In this document: piece by piece, positions 15,130 to 51,544 of the stretch
How positions within the stretch are numbered: the stretch's first letter is position 1
Layout of the letters: every line of letters begins with the position of its first letter
Origin: Alphaproteobacteria bacterium
GTDB taxonomy: Bacteria; Pseudomonadota; Alphaproteobacteria; Micavibrionales; Micavibrionaceae
Direction of reading: 5' to 3'
NCBI GenBank assembly: GCA_030147745.1
Contig: JASBUS010000070.1
Location: 1-64,000, forward strand
DNA: 64,000 bases
Position numbers and translations under genes: made by a program
Notes under the pieces: model-generated
What the model was told of the DNA's origin: nothing
Seen by the model: the letters and a program-made list of their open reading frames with translations, nothing else
Databases searched by the model: none

Positions 15130-16260
15130 ATGGTAAAAATTAGACATGTGAATTTGGCGAATGCCGAAGAAGCCGTTAAGCCCCTGCGTGGCGCAAATGA
15201 CAGCTTCACATTTGTTATCCGTGATGACAATAAACACGTGACCGCGCCTATTGCGTCACGATTGATTAATGTTTTGTCGAAAAAGCCGACCGTAAAATCT
15301 GATTTTCTTTGTGCTCAAACGGGGCAATCCCTTGAAGATGTTGTGCATCAAACCGTGGCAAATGCCTATGAAAACTGGATGCGCCATTCGCTCTACATGC
15401 TTGGTCGCCATATTGATGCCAGTAAATACAAACTTGATGACGCGCAAAGCAAACGCTTGCGCGTTCATTTATATGATGCGGATGAGCTTGCAGATTCTGT
15501 GGTGAACAAAGCTTTACATGATCCGTTATTTGTGAAGCCTGGTGCGCCTGAGCCCTATTTGATTTCACTGGATGATATGATTGCAGTGCCTGAAGGGCGC
15601 GGCGGTGAGATTTCATTCTCTCGTTTATTTTCGCTATGTGGTAAAGATTATTTTGATTATACCGCGCGTCCGGGGCATCCGGCCATTCGTCATCAATTGG
15701 CGAAGGTGCGTAATGATTTGAAACAGCGTTTTGAGCAAACAGGGCAGGCAACGCCGATTGTGCTGTTGGAAGATAATATTCGTCATGCCCGTATGCTTAA
15801 CTGGCTTGAAAATTTAATGGATGATCATGGCTTGTTTGATCACGCCTATTTAGCGGGTATTTCAACCTGCTTTTGTTCAGCGGATGATGTTGAGCTTTCT
15901 AAGATTAAGCATAAAGGCACACGTTCAGTCCCTGTTTCCGTTGGGGTTGATTATGTTGGTGTGAATGCTGATGTCCAAACGCCGCGTGATTTAATGTTTG
16001 ATGGCTTTGTTGTTAAGATTGACGGCAAAAAAGGCCGCCTTCCAGGCATCTTTATGGATGTGGCGTCACGTTTCTCAGTCGCGGAAACACGCAGTGAAGC
16101 GTTTAAGGAAGATATTCGTCGCATTAACCGTGAATTTTGCCTTGATATACGCGAAAAATTGGGCGTAAATATGCCGTTGCTATGGTTTGTTGGTGCAAAG
16201 CCAGTATCCCATGTTACGAATACGCATGTGAATACGTCGATGCTGAAAGTCATGCGTTAA
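15130..16260 (+). CDS. Unrecognised 376-residue cytoplasmic protein
   Basis: No family is recognised. There is no signal peptide or membrane segment. The middle contains P-I-V-L-L-E-D-N-I-R-H-A-R-M (about 215-228). It looks like the strand-plus-acidic-pair of a phosphoribosyltransferase PRPP loop but deviates after the acidic pair. A cysteine-rich turn S-T-C-F-C-S follows. AGGGAAATAC precedes the ATG, and a TTGACA-17-TAAATA promoter lies upstream. A nucleoside hydrolase gene starts 37 bases downstream, so a nucleotide or nucleoside-related role is suggested by context only. Confidence 0.55.
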   Translation: MVKIRHVNLANAEEAVKPLRGANDSFTFVIRDDNKHVTAPIASRLINVLSKKPTVKSDFLCAQTGQSLEDVVHQTVANAYENWMRHSLYMLGRHIDASKYKLDDAQSKRLRVHLYDADELADSVVNKALHDPLFVKPGAPEPYLISLDDMIAVPEGRGGEISFSRLFSLCGKDYFDYTARPGHPAIRHQLAKVRNDLKQRFEQTGQATPIVLLEDNIRHARMLNWLENLMDDHGLFDHAYLAGISTCFCSADDVELSKIKHKGTRSVPVSVGVDYVGVNADVQTPRDLMFDGFVVKIDGKKGRLPGIFMDVASRFSVAETRSEAFKEDIRRINREFCLDIREKLGVNMPLLWFVGAKPVSHVTNTHVNTSMLKVMR

Positions 16261-18227: not shown

Positions 18228-18824
18228 TTGTCAGTTTTTTATAAGATCACATCGGTTGTACTGGGTGCGGCGTGCTTGACGGTCATGGGGGCGCAGCCTT
18301 TACATGCGCAGCAAGATGTTTCACAGGACAATAGACCGTTTTGGGAGACTGAAAAAGTCCCCGCAAAATTGGTGAAGCGTTATGAGCGGCGTTATCCGTT
18401 CTTCAAAAAGCTCGACAAAGATCTAAACTGGATTTTGAGTGAGGCTGAAATTGAAGCTGCGATAAGCGGTGAGTTTAAGGCTTTTGATAAAGATTTAGAT
18501 GGCATCTGGAATAAAGAAGAATTTAGAGCTTATCGTTCAAAATTTGTTGAAACACGTGAAGAAAGTCATGGCGCAACATCGGCGGATCGCGTGAAACGTT
18601 TTGATTTGCGTGTTGAGCAGGCGGATAAAAATGATGATGGTCAGCTGTCATGGGAAGAGTTCTATCGTTTCTCGCGTGAACGTTATTTCCGCATGGATAA
18701 CAATAAAAATGGGGAAATTGAGTTTAAAGAATTTCGTACTATAGATGATAAAATATCACCAACTGGTGGGTCGGATGATGAAGTCGTCAAAGTGCCAGAG
18801 TATAAAGATAAGTTAGGTGAATGA
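18228..18824 (+). CDS. Secreted EF-hand calcium-binding protein
   Basis: This 198-residue protein starts at TTG (AAGG upstream) and has a signal peptide ending near P-L-H-A-Q-Q. Three EF-hand loops are visible: D-K-D-L-D-G-I-W-N-K-E-E, D-K-N-D-D-G-Q-L-S-W-E-E and D-N-N-K-N-G-E-I-E-F-K-E. All keep the acidic twelfth position, so calcium binding is likely. The stop overlaps the start of a TetR regulator by 4 bases, so regulator and EF-hand protein are probably made together. Its periplasmic partner is unknown. Confidence 0.82.
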   Translation: MSVFYKITSVVLGAACLTVMGAQPLHAQQDVSQDNRPFWETEKVPAKLVKRYERRYPFFKKLDKDLNWILSEAEIEAAISGEFKAFDKDLDGIWNKEEFRAYRSKFVETREESHGATSADRVKRFDLRVEQADKNDDGQLSWEEFYRFSRERYFRMDNNKNGEIEFKEFRTIDDKISPTGGSDDEVVKVPEYKDKLGE

Positions 18825-19432
18825 TGTCTGGGAAGACCAATTCAAAAGTTAAACTGATTGAGACCGCCGTGGATTTGGTGCGGATGAGTAGTTATACCGA
18901 TGTCGGTGTGAACGAAATCTGCGAAAAAGCTGGGGTCACTAAAGGCGCGTTTTATCACCATTTTAAATCAAAAGCAGCGCTTTATGCGGAAGCGGCGGCT
19001 TATAAAAAAGAAAATGAGGGCAAAGTCCTGCAATCGTTGCTGTCTGACCGCCATGACGCGATGAAAAAGCTCAATAACATGATTGGCTATATCTATTATA
19101 AAGGCTTCCAAAGCACAGAAACTTCGGAACAAAAGGTCAGTGGCTGCCCATTTTTTACAGCGGGGGCGATTAATTCACAAAATGATGAGTTGATCCGCGA
19201 AGCAAGTATGGATTATGTCGATCACGAAGTTAGCCATTGGGAGCTTGTGATCACTTCTTTGGCAGAAGCTAATTTGATTGAACCACCACAAGACGCGCGT
19301 CAATTGGCGCGGATGATTTATCAATATGCGAATGGCGTATTGACCTATTCCCGTATCTTTGATGATGAACGCACAATGCGAGAGGATCTCGAAACTGGGA
19401 TTTATCGATTCTTAAATATCAAAAAAAATTAA
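18821..19432 (+). CDS. TetR/AcrR family transcriptional regulator
   Basis: This 203-residue repressor has the N-terminal helix-turn-helix G-V-N-E-I-C-E-K-A-G-V-T-K-G-A-F-Y-H-H-F (about 29-48). The C-terminal ligand domain contains G-C-P-F-F-T-A-G-A, as in a common subfamily with a G-C-P/L-x-x motif. It overlaps the EF-hand gene by 4 bases. About 90 bases after the stop is an ACCGGTCGGT sequence inside a promoter-like element, which is a plausible operator. Ligand is unknown. Confidence 0.88.
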   Translation: MMSGKTNSKVKLIETAVDLVRMSSYTDVGVNEICEKAGVTKGAFYHHFKSKAALYAEAAAYKKENEGKVLQSLLSDRHDAMKKLNNMIGYIYYKGFQSTETSEQKVSGCPFFTAGAINSQNDELIREASMDYVDHEVSHWELVITSLAEANLIEPPQDARQLARMIYQYANGVLTYSRIFDDERTMREDLETGIYRFLNIKKN

Positions 19433-19519
19433 AAAAATTTTTCTGAGCCATTGCTGGAATATATCTATAGCCGCGTGAATATTGGTTTTACGCGGTTAAA
19501 TATTTTTGTGCTTTTTTAT

Positions 19520-19553
19520 TTGACACAGACCGGTCGGTATGTTAGTCTAAATA
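19520..19553 (+). promoter_or_regulatory. Promoter with embedded TetR-type operator
   Basis: TTGACA (19520-19525) begins a promoter-like region. The half-site-rich GACCGGTCGGTA lies inside the spacer (19528-19539), a typical arrangement for a TetR-controlled promoter. The -10 is weak (TAGTCT at 17-base spacing, or TAAATA a little later). It points towards the structured leader and the receiver-HPt gene. Confidence 0.45.
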
Positions 19554-19641
19554 TATGAGTTGCTTGAAATAAGTAAAAGGAAGAAGCTCAAAATTATTTT
19601 AATTGAGTGGATGTATTTATTAAAAAATATTTTAAAGCAAA

Positions 19642-19720
19642 GGACAGAAAGTTAAGATATCGGGCTTACCCCCATACCTTGATCCTAAATATAACCGGCC
19701 CGGTATTTTTCTTTCTGTCC
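19642..19720 (+). ncRNA. Long imperfect hairpin, candidate small RNA or leader structure
   Basis: The outer arms GGACAGAAAG (19642-19651) and CTTTCTGTCC (19711-19720) pair perfectly over 10 bp. Inside them ATATCGGGC (19657-19665) pairs with GCCCGGTAT (19698-19706) over 9 bp with one G-U. The 32-base loop carries the C-rich TTACCCCCATACC. A T-rich run follows the outer arm. There is no ORF here. The region from 19433 to 19769 otherwise holds only the promoter/operator above. It could be a small RNA, a terminator for a transcript from 19555, or a leader of the receiver-HPt gene. Confidence 0.45.
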
Positions 19721-19769
19721 ATTTTTATTTAGCACAAATTTTGAATTAAGTTTTTTGGCGGTGGTTTAT

Positions 19770-20576
19770 ATGGTTCCTCAGCAAGATACAATGCGTATTC
19801 TTTATGTTGACGATCTTGTCATGAACCACGCCATTTTTGAATCTATGTTTGTGCATTCGGGCTATGATTGCGCCTTTGCACAAAGCGGAGAGGAAGCAGT
19901 CGGACTGTGTTTGAAAAGCCATTATGATTTGATCATCATGGATAGCGTCACAGGGTCATTAGACGGTTTCCTCGCAACGAAGTTTATTAGAAACCATGAG
20001 CGGGCAGAGCTTATAAGGCCATCGGTCATTTTAGGGCTCAGCTTTGATGATAATTTCGTCACCCGCTTAAAGGCTTCAATGAGTGGCATGAATGCAGTAA
20101 TAAGAAAGCCAATGACAATGAGTATGCTGAAAAAAATTATAAACCGATGGTTTGAACCAGAAGATGCTGAGGCAGCTGCGATGGATCCTTTAAAAACAGA
20201 TTATGCGAATAGCTACGCGAGACAGTTTCTTGACGAACAAGCTGTGTTGTCGCTGAAAGAAATTCTTAAAGAGAAATACCCGACGACACTGGATTTGTTT
20301 AAGCAAGACATCAAGAAATATGTCGAACAGGCGTATGATGCGCTTGATGGTTATGACCTAAAAAAGGTTTATGATTCCATGCATACGATTAAATCTGCAA
20401 GTATGCAGGTTGGTTTGATTAAAGTGCATGAATTAGCGGCGCAGCTTGAATCAATTTGTGCCAATGACCACCCAGACATCGAACACAGCATGATGTGCGA
20501 TATTGTCCGCGCACAAGTGGATCATATTCAGCATGTTTATAGCCTGTCTGAGCGTTTGCTAGAGCAGACAAAATAA
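19770..20576 (+). CDS. Receiver-HPt two-domain phosphorelay protein
   Basis: This 268-residue protein has an N-terminal receiver (I-L-Y-V-D-D, phosphoacceptor in L-I-I-M-D-S, conserved lysine in I-R-K-P-M). The C-terminal helical HPt domain carries the phosphorylatable histidine in M-H-T-I-K-S-A-S (about 206). Such proteins shuttle phosphate between a hybrid kinase and a response regulator. The ATG at 19770 follows GGCGGTGG; a TTG at 19755 and an ATG at 19791 are alternatives. No cognate kinase lies nearby. The long 5' region contains the structured hairpin described separately. Confidence 0.82.
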   Translation: MVPQQDTMRILYVDDLVMNHAIFESMFVHSGYDCAFAQSGEEAVGLCLKSHYDLIIMDSVTGSLDGFLATKFIRNHERAELIRPSVILGLSFDDNFVTRLKASMSGMNAVIRKPMTMSMLKKIINRWFEPEDAEAAAMDPLKTDYANSYARQFLDEQAVLSLKEILKEKYPTTLDLFKQDIKKYVEQAYDALDGYDLKKVYDSMHTIKSASMQVGLIKVHELAAQLESICANDHPDIEHSMMCDIVRAQVDHIQHVYSLSERLLEQTK

Positions 20577-20678
20577 GGTCATTGCTGATCTTTCCAAAGC
20601 CTGTCGTTTCGTGTATGATGATTGATAGATAATGTCTTTTCGGGCGTTCGCCCGTATTTCAGCACATGGAGTGATTAT

Positions 20679-21494
20679 ATGTCGATGAAACGCCTTTCTT
20701 TGGTTGCGTCTTGTATGGCGGCTTTGATGGCTGCGCAGCCTGCATCTGCGGGTTACCAAGAAAATTTGATCCAATCAGATTCTAAATGGGATGTCATGTT
20801 GGGTGTCACGGCGGCGACAGTTGCTGAATACCCTGGCGCGGAAGATCAAGAATTTATTGGTTTGCCTGCGATTGTCGTGGATTACGAATTTCGTGAAAAT
20901 AACCATCTATACATTAATACATTACAAGATAGTGGCTCTGACTTTATGAAAGGTGCGGGCTATGAATTTAATGGTGAGCGTATTATTTGGGGGATTAAAG
21001 CGGGTTGGCGCAAAGGGCGTGAGCAAGGTGATTCAGAAAAGCTGATTGATCTAGGGGATGTTGACAGTACATTCACTGCAGGTTTCTATGGCGGCCTCCA
21101 TTTTGGACCATTACGTTTATTGGCAGAATATGATGCGGGCTTAGATAACAATAATGATGGCGTGTTAACGACGTTTTCAGCGCGCTATAACATGGTTTCC
21201 GTTGATAAGCCGATGAGCGGCTTTATTGGCGTGAAAACCGTTTATGGCGATGATGCCTACCAAGATGCGTATTTCGGTGTGGATACACCGCGCGTGGGGC
21301 GTCCAGCTTATGAGGCTGATGCTGGCTTTGTTAAATATGGAGTATTCGGCGGCATTGATTATTTATTGGCAGACCATCACTATTTCCGTCTAGATGGGAA
21401 TTATATGAGCCTATCAACAGACGTAACCAATAGCTCGGTCGTTGAAGAAAACTACGACTTCGGCGCCTTTGTCAGCTATGGCTATAAATTCTGA
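20679..21494 (+). CDS. MipA/OmpV-like outer membrane protein
   Basis: This 271-residue beta-barrel protein has a signal peptide ending A-Q-P-A-S-A-G. Alternating amphipathic strands fill the protein and it ends in Y-G-Y-K-F, the aromatic C-terminus recognised by the BAM machinery. The early A-E-Y-P-G-A-E-D and I-V-V-D-Y-E-F segments match MipA/OmpV. The ATG at 20679 has GGAG eight bases upstream and starts the signal peptide. A terminator follows directly. MipA relatives act as scaffolds or in envelope maintenance; a specific role is not visible here. Confidence 0.8.
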   Translation: MSMKRLSLVASCMAALMAAQPASAGYQENLIQSDSKWDVMLGVTAATVAEYPGAEDQEFIGLPAIVVDYEFRENNHLYINTLQDSGSDFMKGAGYEFNGERIIWGIKAGWRKGREQGDSEKLIDLGDVDSTFTAGFYGGLHFGPLRLLAEYDAGLDNNNDGVLTTFSARYNMVSVDKPMSGFIGVKTVYGDDAYQDAYFGVDTPRVGRPAYEADAGFVKYGVFGGIDYLLADHHYFRLDGNYMSLSTDVTNSSVVEENYDFGAFVSYGYKF

Positions 21495-21515
21495 TCTAAA
21501 GATGACCTAAAAGTT

Positions 21516-21546
21516 AAAGGGCCTAGTTAAGGCCCTTTTTTTATGG
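21516..21546 (+). terminator. Terminator copy 1 after the MipA-like gene
   Basis: The stem AAAGGGCC / GGCCCTTT with loop TAGTTAA is followed by seven T. All 31 bases recur exactly at 22242-22272. Confidence 0.92.
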
Positions 21547-21588
21547 CCTTGTTATGAATTTTTAATAACTCATTGTTAGGATGATGAT

Positions 21589-22242
21589 ATGGGGTATGTC
21601 GTTCTTTCTGTCATTGGTGTTTGTTTTCTTGCGGTCGCTTTATACGATGCGTATCTGTTCGTGCAACGGACAACTAAGCAGGGCGGGCGCTATCCCGTTG
21701 TTGGCTATAAACGCGTTTTGTTCCGTAAATTAATTCCTAATATTGCACCAGTCGTGAAGAAAGGAGATGACTATTTTGTCTTAGATTTAGGTAAAACAGA
21801 ATATGTTATTCCTCTGGGAACGCAAATTTATTGTTTTGAACGCGATGGCCTGTTGGTTTATCGCTCTTATATGCGTTTAATGCTGTTGCTCTTAGCTGTG
21901 CTCATATTGAGCATTTTTGGGATTGCTTTTAATGTTAGTGGTGGAGAATATCTATTTCTTGCAGTATTGCTGCTGATGTTTGTTTTGCTTATAGTTGAAA
22001 ATTATCAAATTTATGGGCGTCAGAACTTTAAGACAGCTATGCTTTATTCTATTATGCGACCAAAGCAGGGCGAGCCGCTTAAGTTAAGCAAAGAAGATTA
22101 TGCAGCTTTAATCGCATCTGATCAGTTGTTGAGTTTTGATGAGGCAGTGGCGATGAAAAAAAGAGATGCGCGTATAGAGCTGGCTGTTTATATGCCGTTT
22201 CTTATTTTTTTCTTAATATACTGGCTAAGCTTAAAAATGTAA
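21589..22242 (+). CDS. Four-helix inner membrane protein of unknown function
   Basis: This 217-residue protein has hydrophobic segments at about residues 3-22, 95-115, 120-140 and 197-214. Between the first and second is a soluble, strand-rich stretch with L-D-L-G-K-T-E-Y-V. The family is not recognised. AGGATG precedes the ATG. The gene sits exactly between two identical copies of a 31-base terminator, as if it and its 3' terminator form a cassette. Confidence 0.7.
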   Translation: MGYVVLSVIGVCFLAVALYDAYLFVQRTTKQGGRYPVVGYKRVLFRKLIPNIAPVVKKGDDYFVLDLGKTEYVIPLGTQIYCFERDGLLVYRSYMRLMLLLLAVLILSIFGIAFNVSGGEYLFLAVLLLMFVLLIVENYQIYGRQNFKTAMLYSIMRPKQGEPLKLSKEDYAALIASDQLLSFDEAVAMKKRDARIELAVYMPFLIFFLIYWLSLKM

Positions 22243-22272
22243 AAGGGCCTAGTTAAGGCCCTTTTTTTATGG
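22242..22272 (+). terminator. Terminator copy 2 after the membrane protein gene
   Basis: This is an exact 31-base duplicate of 21516-21546: the GGGCC-type stem, loop TAGTTAA and seven T. It overlaps the last codons of the convergent methyltransferase gene, whose TAA lies in the T-run. Confidence 0.92.
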
Positions 22273-23388
22273 TTGTGCAGGTGCTTTTGGCGTGATGCGG
22301 AAGCTGTGGAGGTAGATATTCTCCTTGCCGCGTGCCAGCATTTCTTTGGCTTCGTAAAATTTTGAAGTTTTGCTCAAATTGTTGACTTGTGTATTCACGA
22401 TAGATGTACTCGCTTGGTAGGAGTTGATCATTGTGAAAGAGAAGCCCGCTTCGATATCTTTACAAATTTCTTCGAAGGAACCGTCCTGAACGCTGTCGTC
22501 TTTAGCGTAAACACGGAAAGATTTTTTCGCTTTGATGATATGCGCATAGTTGCGTGTTTGTGGATCAAATTTAGGATCGTCCATTTCATAGGCGAATAAA
22601 TCATTGATCACAGCACGGTCGTTTTTATCAAGCGGGTTACCGTTGATGTCTTCGATACGAATATCAGGCGAGTTGAGCAGCATGAAATGCCATGCGTTCA
22701 ACATAAATTCAGCCAAATAAGCGTTTGCATAAGCTTTTTGTAATGTTGATTGCTTTTCAAGGGCGTTGTAGCCGATGATTGCATAACCGTCATTTGCCGC
22801 TAAACGGAAGATATCGCGCAAAGCAGATTGTGTTTCTGTTTCAGGATATGAATCCTTCGCTAATTTCTCGATGTTGGTAATCAACGAACCCACGCACATG
22901 ACAAGATTTTTCTTGTAATCTTTTGCCCAGCGGTCGGTGACTTTTTTATCAATATCTTGGAATGGGCCAGTGATTGCTGTCACGCTAACATTTTTCGCAG
23001 CAAGCTCGGCTTTCATGTCCGTCATTGTTTGTCTTGCGGCTTGGTTAAATTTTTCCGCAATATCAATGAAGGTCACTTTTTTCAAATTCGGCAGGTGTTT
23101 AATGACGTGGAATTCTTTTTCTGCAAAAGCTGAACCTGGGCCGACGATAACGGCATGTTCAACATCACGCATTTCAGTAGCCATGGCCTGGCCATGCTCA
23201 GACAAAATTTCGCCTTCTTTCCAGAAGCTTGGGTAGTTTTCGTTGTTACGAATAAATTCGTTAAACTTCGCACCACCACCATTTAGATAGGCATAACGGC
23301 CGCCATTGGCCGTTGACTGACCAAACAACATATCTTTTGTCGCTTGTTCGATACCTTCCAAATGTTTGTCTTGCTTTTTATTGGCCAC
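22267..23388 (-). CDS. EgtD-like SAM-dependent methyltransferase
   Basis: This 373-residue protein resembles the histidine-specific methyltransferase (EgtD, Methyltransf_33) family. It has a Rossmann SAM segment A-V-I-V-G-P-G-S-A-F-A-E-K-E, followed by V-T-F-I-D-I-A, then L-V-M-C-V-G-S-L-I-T-N, which matches the F-L-G-S-x-I-G-N block of EgtD. Substrate is not determined; no EgtB sulfoxide synthase lies nearby, so ergothioneine synthesis is not supported. I prefer the GTG at 23388 with AAGGTG just upstream, because the longer frame to 23430 would overlap the regulator. The regulator gene ends 17 bases upstream, so the two form an operon. Confidence 0.7.
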   Translation of the reverse strand: MANKKQDKHLEGIEQATKDMLFGQSTANGGRYAYLNGGGAKFNEFIRNNENYPSFWKEGEILSEHGQAMATEMRDVEHAVIVGPGSAFAEKEFHVIKHLPNLKKVTFIDIAEKFNQAARQTMTDMKAELAAKNVSVTAITGPFQDIDKKVTDRWAKDYKKNLVMCVGSLITNIEKLAKDSYPETETQSALRDIFRLAANDGYAIIGYNALEKQSTLQKAYANAYLAEFMLNAWHFMLLNSPDIRIEDINGNPLDKNDRAVINDLFAYEMDDPKFDPQTRNYAHIIKAKKSFRVYAKDDSVQDGSFEEICKDIEAGFSFTMINSYQASTSIVNTQVNNLSKTSKFYEAKEMLARGKENIYLHSFRITPKAPAQP

Positions 23389-23405
23389 GTTCACACACCT
23401 TATAT

Positions 23406-24044
23406 TTAGAAACTCACAGCGCGCTTCCACATATCCTCAAACTGGATACGGTAAGCTGCATTAATAGCAGGGTAATTCATGACGATGACTGTAGGTTCGT
23501 TTTCGAACAACATAATCGCCAGTTTTTCACCAAATGCATAAAACGGTACAGATGCAAAAAGATCAGACGGTAGGCGTCGATATTCAGCGTAGCTATCACC
23601 TGGTTTGTAATCGTCATTCTCACGAATAAGAATGCGGAAACTTAACCCTTCGATAGATTCCATACGGTTAATATGTGTTTTGGCGTAATCACCAAGCCAG
23701 CGTATAAAGTCCCGCTCATTCACGTTGCTAACAACAACGTTTTTGTTTTCACTTGTTTTGAGTGTTTCAAAAATAGTGTCATAGAAACTGATCAAGCCAT
23801 TACGACCTGTGAAGACACGTACATCGCCACTGCGAATTTTTACGCCTTCAAGACCGACAAATTCAATACCGCCGTATTCAAATGTCGCCTTAATATTGGC
23901 AATGGTGCTTTCGCGAGGAGTTGTTGTGCCGTTTTCTATGCTACCAATAGAGGTCGCAGAAATACCGGTACGGTCAGAAAGATCTGCTTGGGACCAGTTA
24001 AGTAGTCCGCGTGCGCCTCTAATTTGTGCTGCCGTAATGGTCAT
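23406..24044 (-). CDS. XRE-type regulator fused to a PLD-like sensor domain
   Basis: This 212-residue protein opens with an XRE helix-turn-helix (I-R-G-A-R-G-L-L-N-W-S-Q-A-D-L to about residue 60). The C-terminal half reads F-Y-D-T-I-F-E-T-L, then V-V-S-N-V-N-E-R-D-F, and ends P-A-I-N-A-A-Y-R-I-Q-F-E-D-M-W. That pattern is like the phospholipase-D-fold sensor domains of TrmB-like regulators, without an obvious catalytic H-K-D. GAGGGAACAAT precedes the ATG. It leads an operon with the EgtD-like methyltransferase and is divergent from a candidate small RNA. Confidence 0.78.
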   Translation of the reverse strand: MTITAAQIRGARGLLNWSQADLSDRTGISATSIGSIENGTTTPRESTIANIKATFEYGGIEFVGLEGVKIRSGDVRVFTGRNGLISFYDTIFETLKTSENKNVVVSNVNERDFIRWLGDYAKTHINRMESIEGLSFRILIRENDDYKPGDSYAEYRRLPSDLFASVPFYAFGEKLAIMLFENEPTVIVMNYPAINAAYRIQFEDMWKRAVSF

Positions 24045-24277
24045 ATTGTTCCCTCATTTGAAACATTCTTACAAACTGGTCATGAAAAATATAAGCTTAA
24101 TATTTATCACGATTTCATTTGCGTTTTTAACAAGTTTTAAGTGGTTAAAAACTTTATAGAGGGAAGTTATACAGTTTTCAATAAAAAAATGCAAGATAAT
24201 TATGACAATAATTTTGACTTATTTTTTTCTAACTTAATTAAAACATAAGCAGTGCTTTTCCATTTCGCAATTTTGTC

Positions 24278-24306
24278 TTGACAAGGGTGAAATAAAAGCG
24301 TAGTAA
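24278..24306 (+). promoter_or_regulatory. Possible promoter for an intergenic RNA
   Basis: A perfect TTGACA at 24278-24283 lies 17 bases before TAGTAA at 24301-24306, a weak -10. The -35 sits inside the inverted repeat TTGTC-TT-GACAA. There is no plus-strand gene downstream before the terminator at 24401. Confidence 0.45.
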
Positions 24307-24307
24307 T

Positions 24308-24430
24308 CAACTATTGTTTGTATATATGTGTCTATGATTGGATGAAATTTATAATTTTATTTCAATTGCAGACTATATATCAGATTTCCCCACATAACTT
24401 GACCGTCGGAGCTAATCCGACGGTCTTTTT
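24308..24430 (+). ncRNA. Candidate small RNA with Rho-independent terminator
   Basis: A strong terminator (GACCGTCGG / CCGACGGTC, loop AGCTAAT, then TTTTTCTTTCTG) stands on the plus strand with no plus-strand ORF upstream. That implies a non-coding transcript of about 120 bases if the promoter at 24278 is used. A single-stranded C-rich segment TTTCCCCACATAACTTGA precedes the hairpin and could pair with Shine-Dalgarno sequences. The 5' end is approximate. Confidence 0.5.
24401..24430 (+). terminator. Strong orphan Rho-independent terminator
   Basis: A 9-bp perfect GC-rich stem with a 7-base loop is followed by five T and a pyrimidine-rich tail. Neither flanking gene is on this strand. Confidence 0.9.
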
Positions 24431-24450
24431 CTTTCTGCTTGCATTACTTC

Positions 24451-24564: not shown

Positions 24565-26604
24565 TTATGCGACCATAAGGTTCTCGCGGCGTAGCAATGC
24601 ATCAGGATCAGCATCGCGGCCGCGGAAGCGGCGATAGAGAAGATCAGGGTCTTCGCTGCCGCCCTTGGAGAGGATCTCTTTACGGTATTTCGCGGCGATG
24701 GCCTGATTATATAAGCCTTCTTCCTTGAAATATTCAAAAGCATCGGCATCCAAAACCTCGGCCCATTTATAGCTGTAATAGCCTGCAGAATAGCCGCCAG
24801 CAAAGATATGGCTGAAGGATGAGGATGTCGGCCCGCCGAAACGATCAAAGAGTTTACAGTCTTTAATTGCGGCGTCTTCAACGGCAATAACGTCCTTCAC
24901 ATTTTCAGGAATACCATTATGCCAAGCCATATCAAGCAGGCCGAGGCTCACTTGACGCAGGCCGAACATGCCAATCATGAAGTTTTTAGATTCTACTAAC
25001 TTATGAATTAGCTCTTCAGGGATTTTTTCGCCTGTTTCGTAATGTTCAGCGAAGAGATCAAGCGTCTCTTTCTCATATGTCCAGTTTTCCTGAAGCTGAG
25101 AAGGCAGCTCCACAAAGTCCCAAAGGACATTTGTACCAGAGAGTGAACGATATTCACCTTCCGCGAGGAGGGCGTGGATCGCATGGCCTAATTCATGGTA
25201 AAGCGTTGATACTTCATCATGTGTTAATAGGCTTGGCTTGTCGCCTGTTGGTTTGGTGAAGTTACAAACAATTGAAATAACTGGGCGGTGCACTTCGCCT
25301 TTATAGAGGCCTTGGTCACGGTAACTTGTTTTCCAAGCGCCTGGCTTTTTACCAACGCGTGGGTAGAAGTCGCCATATAATGTGCCAATGAAGCTATTGT
25401 CATGCTTGTCATAGACGTCATATGTCACTACATCACTATGCCAAACATCGTAGTTGTCGTTTTTAGTGAAGGTGATGTTGAATAATTTACTGAAATGGGT
25501 GAAGGCACCATCCAAAACTTTGCTGAGTTGGAAATAGGGGCGGAGATCCTCACCTGAGAATTTGAAACGCTCTTGTTTCAGTTTCTCACTATAATAAGAC
25601 GCATCCCATGGTTTGAGCTCGTCGCTAAGGCCATGGCTTTCGGCGTACGCCTTTAATTCAGCCAATTCTTTTTCAGCCGCTGGTTTGTAGCTGTCTTGAA
25701 GCTTCTTTAAAAACTCCATCACTGTTTCAGGGGAGCGTGCCATACGGCGTTCCAGAACATAATCGGCGTGGTTTTTATAGCCGAGGAGTTTGGCGCGCTC
25801 ATCACGCAATGTGACGATTTGTTCGATGAGTTCAGCGTTGCTATATTCATCGCCCCATGCGCGGTTTGAAAAGGCTTTCCAAATTTTTTCACGTAATTCA
25901 CGCTTGTCAGAAAATGTGATGAATGGGCCAAAGCTTGGATAATCTAGTGTGAAAAGCCATTTGCCTTTATAGCCTTTATCCGCTGCTGCGTGCGCTGCGC
26001 CATCAATGGCGCTTTGTGGCAGGCCAGATAAATCGTCTTCATTTTCAATCAAAAGTTCGAAGGCTTCAGATGATTTATTGACGTTATTTGTATATTCAGG
26101 GCCGAGCTTTGACATGGCTTCGTTAATTTTACGAAGCTTTGCTTTACCGTCATCATCCAAAAGTGCGCCGCCACGCACGAAGCCTTTATAGCTGTTGGTC
26201 AGTAGCATATCTTGTTCAGCGTTGAGTTTTAGGCTGTCTTTTTTATCAAAAACGGCTTTGACGCGCTCGAATAAAACTGGGTCCATGGCCACGTCAGATG
26301 ACAATTCTGCACAAAGCGGGCCGACTTGCATGGCAAGTTCTTGTAGGCCGTCCGTGCCATTCGCATAAAGCTGGTTGTAGAAGATAGATGTAATGATGTC
26401 GAGGGTTTCGCTCGCGACTTCCATGGCGACAACTGTGTTTTCAAAATCAGGCTCGCTCGTATCCGTTTTAATCGCAGCGATATTAGCGCGTGCCTCATTA
26501 ATGGCTTCTTTTACTGCAGGCAGAAAGTCTTCTTCTTTATAGGCCGTAAAATGTGGCGCCATATTTGGGAGGTCTGATTTTTTAAGAAGCGGGTTATTGC
26601 TCAT
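24565..26604 (-). CDS. M3 family zinc oligopeptidase / peptidyl-dipeptidase (Dcp/PrlC type)
   Basis: This 679-residue metallopeptidase degrades oligopeptides. The zinc motif Y-H-E-L-G-H-A-I-H lies around residue 468 and is followed about 25 residues later by the third ligand in D-F-V-E-L-P-S-Q. Y-S-A-G-Y-Y-S-Y-K-W near the C-terminus is the substrate-binding tyrosine segment. No signal peptide is visible, so it is probably cytoplasmic. The ATG at 26604 follows AAAGGAAATGTA; a longer frame to 26637 is upstream of that site. Confidence 0.92.
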   Translation of the reverse strand: MSNNPLLKKSDLPNMAPHFTAYKEEDFLPAVKEAINEARANIAAIKTDTSEPDFENTVVAMEVASETLDIITSIFYNQLYANGTDGLQELAMQVGPLCAELSSDVAMDPVLFERVKAVFDKKDSLKLNAEQDMLLTNSYKGFVRGGALLDDDGKAKLRKINEAMSKLGPEYTNNVNKSSEAFELLIENEDDLSGLPQSAIDGAAHAAADKGYKGKWLFTLDYPSFGPFITFSDKRELREKIWKAFSNRAWGDEYSNAELIEQIVTLRDERAKLLGYKNHADYVLERRMARSPETVMEFLKKLQDSYKPAAEKELAELKAYAESHGLSDELKPWDASYYSEKLKQERFKFSGEDLRPYFQLSKVLDGAFTHFSKLFNITFTKNDNYDVWHSDVVTYDVYDKHDNSFIGTLYGDFYPRVGKKPGAWKTSYRDQGLYKGEVHRPVISIVCNFTKPTGDKPSLLTHDEVSTLYHELGHAIHALLAEGEYRSLSGTNVLWDFVELPSQLQENWTYEKETLDLFAEHYETGEKIPEELIHKLVESKNFMIGMFGLRQVSLGLLDMAWHNGIPENVKDVIAVEDAAIKDCKLFDRFGGPTSSSFSHIFAGGYSAGYYSYKWAEVLDADAFEYFKEEGLYNQAIAAKYRKEILSKGGSEDPDLLYRRFRGRDADPDALLRRENLMVA

Positions 26605-26672
26605 TACATTTCCTTTGAATTGTTCAATTTGTATCATCGTTCAGAAATTAAGATAGAAAGGGTAACAAAAAG

Positions 26673-50857: not shown

Positions 50858-51544
50858 ATGACTTTTGCCACTAAAAATTTAATCAATCCTGATAACGCTG
50901 TTTTCGTATTTGTTGATCACCAGCCGCAAATGGCTTTTGGTGTACGTTCGATAGATACACAGCTTCTGAAAAACAATACGGTGGCGCTTGCTAAAACCGC
51001 GCGTGCGTTTAATGCACCAACTATTCTCACCTCAGTCGAAAGTGATAGCTTTTCCGGATATATTTGGCCTGAATTATTGGATGTACTTCAGCAAGATCCA
51101 TTGGAGCGTACAACCATGAACCTTTGGGAAGATAAAAAGGTTTATGACGCGATTAAAAAGACGGGCCGCAAGAAAATTATCTTCTCTGGCCTATGGACAG
51201 GGGCATGTATTAACTTCCCCGCACTTTGTGCGCTTGATGAGGGTTTTGAGGTTTATATTATTGGTGATGCCTGCGGCGAAGTGAGCCCAGATGCACAATA
51301 TATGGCGATGACGCGCGCTGAACAAGCGGGGGCAATTCCGATGACATCGTTGCAAGTGCTTTTGGAGCTTCAACGTGATTGGGCGCGTCAGGAAACTTAC
51401 GACCGTACGCTTGATATTGTGCGTGAACATTACGGCGCTTACGGTATGGGTGTTGATTATGCGTACACGCACATACATCAACAGCCACAGCGCAGTGAGC
51501 ATCCACAAAAAGTTATGCCACTTCATAGAAAGTCGGCCGCTTAA
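50858..51544 (+). CDS. Isochorismatase-family cysteine hydrolase
   Basis: This 228-residue hydrolase of the isochorismatase/nicotinamidase superfamily is closest in pattern to YcaC. The likely triad is D20 (F-V-F-V-D-H-Q), a central lysine and C117 (G-L-W-T-G-A-C-I-N-F), with a cis-peptide region before the cysteine. Substrate is not known for most members. AAAGGATCAAGCT precedes the ATG. The gene is monocistronic with an operator-like palindrome upstream and a strong terminator after it. Confidence 0.88.
   Translation: MTFATKNLINPDNAVFVFVDHQPQMAFGVRSIDTQLLKNNTVALAKTARAFNAPTILTSVESDSFSGYIWPELLDVLQQDPLERTTMNLWEDKKVYDAIKKTGRKKIIFSGLWTGACINFPALCALDEGFEVYIIGDACGEVSPDAQYMAMTRAEQAGAIPMTSLQVLLELQRDWARQETYDRTLDIVREHYGAYGMGVDYAYTHIHQQPQRSEHPQKVMPLHRKSAA

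Follow-up and report, generated by a model that had tools for sequence, protein, structure and literature searches.

A 64,000-nucleotide stretch of DNA (the window; GenBank assembly GCA_030147745.1, contig JASBUS010000070.1, positions 1 to 64,000) from a marine Micavibrio-like alphaproteobacterium carries two intergenic structured elements, 4.7 kb apart, that are best explained as two different regulatory RNAs. Site 2 (about 24312-24435) is most probably a stand-alone, trans-acting small RNA (sRNA) of ~120 nt with its own promoter, whose family is absent from RNA databases, whereas site 1 (about 19555-19720) appears to be the first part of a transcript, leader or sRNA, that folds into a hairpin and would be controlled by a TetR-type repressor. 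We assign this explanation, taken as a whole, a probability of about 0.72. An initial annotation had proposed that the two sites share a C-rich segment and a 3′ tail and may be members of one undescribed family; both are indeed conserved structured RNAs, with pairing kept despite sequence change, but the proposed kinship does not hold.

Conservation of the locus and the site 2 RNA

The source genome (2.4 Mb in 101 contigs; G000) was compared within a set of 104 genomes of its family, in which two others, G001 and G002, belong to the same genus and together with it make up the three species referred to throughout. Synteny is kept at both sites in every one of them. The gene order runs MTHFR, EF-hand protein, TetR, site 1, receiver-Hpt, MipA, membrane protein, EgtD-like methyltransferase, HTH_3, site 2 and peptidase M3, and is kept around both sites in G001 and G002 with the exception of the membrane protein, which only the window genome has; its gene (21589-22242) has no Pfam or NCBIfam match and is absent at the same locus in both relatives. 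With up to three mismatches allowed, the core patterns of the two sites each occur in a single copy per genome in the three genus members, and neither occurs in the other 101 family genomes. The sequence at each site folds more stably than any of 200 shuffled versions (z −4.3 and −6.5). Nothing in the window matches an Rfam family at its gathering score, and sub-threshold matches other than RF00519 are chance-like.

In site 2 an unpaired segment, UUUCCCCACA..AACUUG, sits between a predicted 5′ hairpin and an intrinsic terminator (Table 1). The terminator hairpin, described earlier as a perfect 9-bp helix, is present at 24401-24425, and we count 10 pairs in it. What is conserved across the three species is the TTGACA region, the TGTTTGTATATATGTGTC downstream of it, the segment TATATCAGATTTCCCCACA-Y-AACTTG and the terminator, with the apex of the 5′ hairpin varying. 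Within the genus (three sequences), 4 of the 10 terminator pairs have changed on both sides and none is broken, a covariation resting on few changes because only three close species contribute to it; once the homologues from G112 and G019 are added (five sequences), 8 of 10 have changed on both sides, again with none broken, and none of 500 shuffles does equally well. Transcribed from its own promoter, such an sRNA would act in trans, its unpaired UUUCCCCACA..AACUUG most likely pairing with G-rich Shine-Dalgarno regions and repressing translation, as in the alpha-r8 RNAs (MmgR, SisA-D). The earlier suggestion of C-rich, anti-Shine-Dalgarno loops is supported to this extent: exposed C-rich single strands occur at both sites, and site 2 is built as alphaproteobacterial anti-Shine-Dalgarno sRNAs are.

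Homologues of site 2 extend beyond the genus. A first covariance model, built from the core and terminator of site 2 and searched over the 104 family genomes, gave its clearest relatives in G112 and G019, both of one genus, where a promoter-like sequence, a 5′ hairpin, GAATTTCCCCACATT(T)AAACTTGACC and a terminator follow one another. When 142 genomes of the order were searched with a second model, a strong relative emerged in a third genus (G005; hairpin GTTCTGC..GCAGAAC, TTCCCCACATAAACTAGAC and terminator), along with weaker candidates, UUCCCCACA plus terminator, in several more. These relatives surfaced by covariance model alone, the patterns with three mismatches having given none outside the genus, and because the search model contains the core, model-found relatives are candidates and not proof. 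We consider the presence of site 2 family RNAs in three genera secure. The initial annotation had proposed both this search and one for further copies of the motif in the window genome; the latter came back empty, with no second site 2 copy at E≤1 by the model of core and terminator and each core present only once.

Further CCCCACACA-type segments lie ahead of terminators in other genera (G023, G013, G022, G077 and G020), including two in a row at one locus of G023 (L208). On JAESRE010000010 (L017), a CCCCACACACG segment and then a terminator are found downstream of a peptidase M3 gene (after 4257), placed like site 2 relative to that gene, with AACTTGG ahead of CCCCACACACG rather than behind it.

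The site 1 hairpin and its TetR-type operator

The nested hairpin reported previously at site 1 is readily found, with outer arms GGACAGAAAG/CTTTCTGTCC (19642-19651/19711-19720) and inner arms ATATCGGGC/GCCCGGTAT (19657-19665/19698-19706), the latter including one G-U pair. When the stems are aligned by structure and counted from the loop, that of G002 is mostly different from that of the window genome, with six of the seven loop-proximal pairs differing on both sides; despite this replaced stem, the loop core CCCCCATACCTTGATCCTAAATA is identical in G002, and this invariance is independent of the structural alignment. The transcript would fold into a hairpin of 23-24 bp presenting the invariant C-rich loop, which would act by base pairing, either within the leader of the receiver-Hpt gene or as an sRNA cut from that leader. 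In the window genome the receiver-Hpt coding start lies 35-50 nt past the hairpin with no promoter of its own visible; site 1 may therefore be a leader, a role as likely as that of an sRNA. Within the 5′ domain (19556-19612), AAGCTCAA can pair with either the upstream TGAGTT or the downstream TTGAGT in each of the three species and may form a bistable element.

Upstream of site 1 stands the gene of a TetR-family repressor with weak NCBIfam similarity, under cut-offs, to CurR/AcuR. Of the 104 family genomes, three have a homologue of this protein at E≤1e-30, and these are the ones that carry site 1; gene and site are thus co-restricted to the genus. The spacer of the site 1 promoter contains the palindrome ACCGGT(C/T)GGT in all three species, and the 10-mer ACCGGTYGGT is found at three places in the window genome, all of them intergenic. 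From these sequence features we infer that the TetR protein binds the site 1 operator, and it would probably block the promoter in doing so. A 19-mer around the operator recurs letter for letter in the promoter of a 39-codon open reading frame on contig 88, conserved in G001. This second operator promoter (G000 C88:33227), also located in both relatives, precedes the frame MSVRVRQKVKRNYQEKAFLQVEYIAFGVFAFYMVMDYLF, which likely encodes a membrane mini-protein; in its 3′ untranslated region (UTR) a conserved block, ATTGCGTGTGTG..GTGGG..ATCAAGG, is accompanied by a strong terminator.

The site 1 loop, read as its reverse complement AGGATCAAGGTATGGGGG, resembles a ribosome-binding site with a start codon. 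In a duplex scan over the start regions of 60 window genes, the loop paired best with that of the gene at 21589 (−21.4 kcal/mol), the membrane protein gene missing from this locus in the relatives, and less well with that of an isochorismatase-family gene at 50858 (AGGATCAAGCTATG), which is kept in G001 and lost in G002. Among the candidate partners of site 2, the gene at 15130, to which no family is assigned, has the start region that is best conserved (−13.2, −15.2 and −18.2). A 17-mer pattern of the site 1 loop gave no conserved start-site target, its matches being only coding-interior or nonorthologous. The ATCAAGG of the mini-protein 3′ UTR is present in all three species and complementary to the loop; the corresponding duplex stands out against shuffles in G001 alone (p 0.025), not in the window genome (0.24) or G002 (0.195). 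A genus-specific TetR protein might, on this pattern, control a small RNA circuit, silencing both site 1, with a loop complement (AGGAUCAAGGUAUGGGGG) that mimics the region where translation starts, and the mini-protein mRNA, whose 3′ UTR with its conserved complement could act as a sponge for site 1 or come under its control; we see this scheme as speculative and unlikely.

Table 1. Features at and around sites 1 and 2, in window coordinates
Feature	Position	Strand	Basis and remarks
TetR-family repressor gene, upstream of site 1	18821..19432	+	Pfam TetR_N, E 1e-12
Terminator-like hairpin between tetR and site 1 promoter	19468..19498	+	
Site 1 promoter, TTGACA-17-TAGTCT (TGGTCT in G002)	19520..19548	+	By eye; conserved in three species
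TetR-type operator, ACAGACCGGTCGGTATGTT	19525..19543	+	In promoter spacer
Site 1 5′ domain (TGAGTT / AAGCTCA / TTGAGT), two mutually exclusive helices	19556..19612	+	Conserved in three species; suboptimal folds
Site 1 long hairpin, 23 pairs	19642..19720	+	Same long stem in three species; 24 pairs predicted in G002
Site 1 loop, near-invariant core CCCCCATACCTTGATCCTAAATA	19666..19697	+	Alignment; 3/104 genomes, one copy each
Receiver + Hpt protein gene	19755..20576	+	Pfam Response_reg, Hpt; orthologues downstream in both relatives
HTH_3 (XRE-type) regulator gene	23406..24044	-	Divergent from site 2; 89-98% identity in relatives
Site 2 promoter, TTGACA-17-TAGTAA	24278..24306	+	By eye; -35 region and following TGTTTGTATATATGTGTC conserved in three species
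Site 2 5′ hairpin, variable apex	24316..24385	+	Same basal helix predicted in 3/3 species
Site 2 single-stranded core, UUUCCCCACAUAACUUG	24385..24401	+	10-mer UUUCCCCACA recurs in homologues of other genera
Site 2 intrinsic terminator + U tract	24401..24435	+	10 pairs; compensatory changes
Peptidase M3 gene	24565..26637	-	Pfam; convergent with site 2

Alternative readings

The resemblance that suggested a single family is plain in the letters of the window: the C-rich strings read CCCCCATACCTTGA (19669-19682) and CCCCACATAACTTGA (24388-24402), the span from CTTGA (19678 and 24398) to the end of TTTTTCTTTCTG (19717 and 24437) measures 40 bases in both, and CGGT stands 23 bases past CTTGA at either site. 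The tail TTTTTCTTTCTG, however, is conserved in neither G001 nor G002, its last part at site 1 is one arm of the stem, and it is a coincidence of the window genome alone. Similarity of the whole RNAs exceeds chance in the window genome (p 0/500) but not in G001 (0.48) or G002 (0.67), and the architectures differ. A local likeness, CCCC-(A)-CATA-N-CTTG, does lie inside both conserved unpaired segments, with marginal significance (p 0.02 in the window genome, 0.02-0.03 in G002, 0.07-0.16 in G001); covariance model R3, which combines site 2 with homologues from another genus, finds site 2 (75 bits) and misses site 1 at E≤1. On this miss and the marginal core similarity we reject the grouping, which is very unlikely and, as a claim of homology, already largely refuted; common descent is not supported, and convergence on a similar seed is possible. 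It is also quite unlikely that the two elements are just terminators or inverted repeats of the ordinary kind, with no regulatory function: site 2 does end in a standard terminator and TTTTTATTT follows site 1 in two of the three species, yet it is the unpaired segments and not the stems that are most conserved, the cores are single copy, and site 2 has a 5′ hairpin and a promoter-like sequence of its own.

Two further possibilities concern one site each. Site 1 could be a purely cis-acting 5′ leader of the receiver-Hpt gene, an attenuator or switch with no action in trans, and this competes seriously, at somewhat less than even odds: the short, seemingly promoterless distance to the coding start, a gene order kept in all three species and the mutually exclusive helices of the 5′ domain all favor it, whereas in G002 the gene begins farther off (about 100-135 nt) and its protein shares only 50% identity, while the loop stays invariant, and the loop pairs unremarkably with the receiver-Hpt start region (−12.3, −14.7 and −10.9 kcal/mol). 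Site 2, in turn, might be a true but divergent alpha-r8 (MmgR/Sis) RNA, a tentative reading that we hold to be less probable than not by a clear measure. The alpha-r8 model RF00519 aligns to it over its full length (1-77/77), if only at sub-threshold scores of 20.6 bits in the window genome and 23.5 in G001, and hairpin, U3C-rich segment, ACUU and terminator come in the same order; against this stand the core, 7/10 identical, the score below gathering, the other neighbors, and a better RF00519 match elsewhere in the window genome (28.7 bits) after a phoH-type gene, a label that we presume from the C-terminal sequence of its product, no family search having been run. This closer alpha-r8-like candidate (ACTCCCTGTAAACTTGA plus terminator, G000 C13:46222-46298) lies directly 3′ of the gene and is present in all three species, and in G122 too with a diverged core; a combined alignment of it with site 2 yields no common base pairs.

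Several observations weigh against our preferred reading of two different regulatory RNAs. Neither promoter appears in the list from the consensus promoter scan, the covariation is drawn from three close species with few changes, and the stem comparison at site 1, being structure-aligned, leans towards structure. The 20.6 bits of site 2 are far under the 41-bit gathering threshold of RF00519, a model with weak matches in 13 of 14 control genomes as well. Finally, the predicted targets are weak, leads without statistical force.

Implications and comparison with known systems

Our literature search found no dedicated sRNA study for Micavibrio-like bacteria, among which there are predatory species. 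The data presented here suggest that these bacteria carry C-rich sRNAs of the anti-Shine-Dalgarno type, with their own core UUUCCCCACA, in at least three genera, and in site 1 they provide an example, open to experiment, in which a TetR repressor may govern a structured RNA and not proteins alone.

In the general TetR/AcrR arrangement, a TetR-type repressor has its target promoter adjacent to it. The locus described here follows that plan, with the palindromic ACCGGTCGGT in the promoter next to the tetR gene, and departs from it in that the promoter precedes a structured noncoding RNA ahead of the receiver-Hpt gene.

Both sites further invite comparison with the alpha-r8 RNAs and their regulators. 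In Caulobacter, SisA acts with Hfq to repress many targets, and the sponge RNA CrfA, which pairs with sRNAs, antagonizes it (PMC12559287). Like CrfA, site 1 has a conserved exposed loop able to pair with RNAs and an expression apparently tied to a regulator; it differs in that its loop is C-rich where that of CrfA is G/A-rich, in being closed by a stem of 23-24 bp and in having a partner that is only hypothetical.

In the alpha-r8 plan, a weak hairpin is combined with a single-stranded UUUCCUCCCU that bears an anti-Shine-Dalgarno signature and with a terminator, and the anti-Shine-Dalgarno action depends on Hfq (PMC12559287). Site 2 shares with this family (RF00519; MmgR of Sinorhizobium meliloti, SisA-D of Caulobacter) a 5′ hairpin, predicted upstream in all three species, a C-rich single strand starting UUUCC, ACUU ahead of a Rho-independent terminator, and the status of a stand-alone gene. 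It lacks the exact 10-mer (UUUCCUCCCU vs. UUUCCCCACA), the Rfam gathering score and the N-formylglutamate amidohydrolase gene that adjoins alpha-r8 RNAs in most species, if not at all copies, its own neighbors being HTH_3 and peptidase M3, and it fails to qualify for membership. The family may be called undescribed in that no Rfam member is matched at gathering score, less so in that the design of site 2 is close to known RNAs. We propose, on comparative grounds, that site 2 represents a new family of alpha-r8-like sRNAs in Micavibrio relatives, with UUUCCCCACA as its own core, and by analogy there is a fair probability that it works as an alpha-r8 RNA does.

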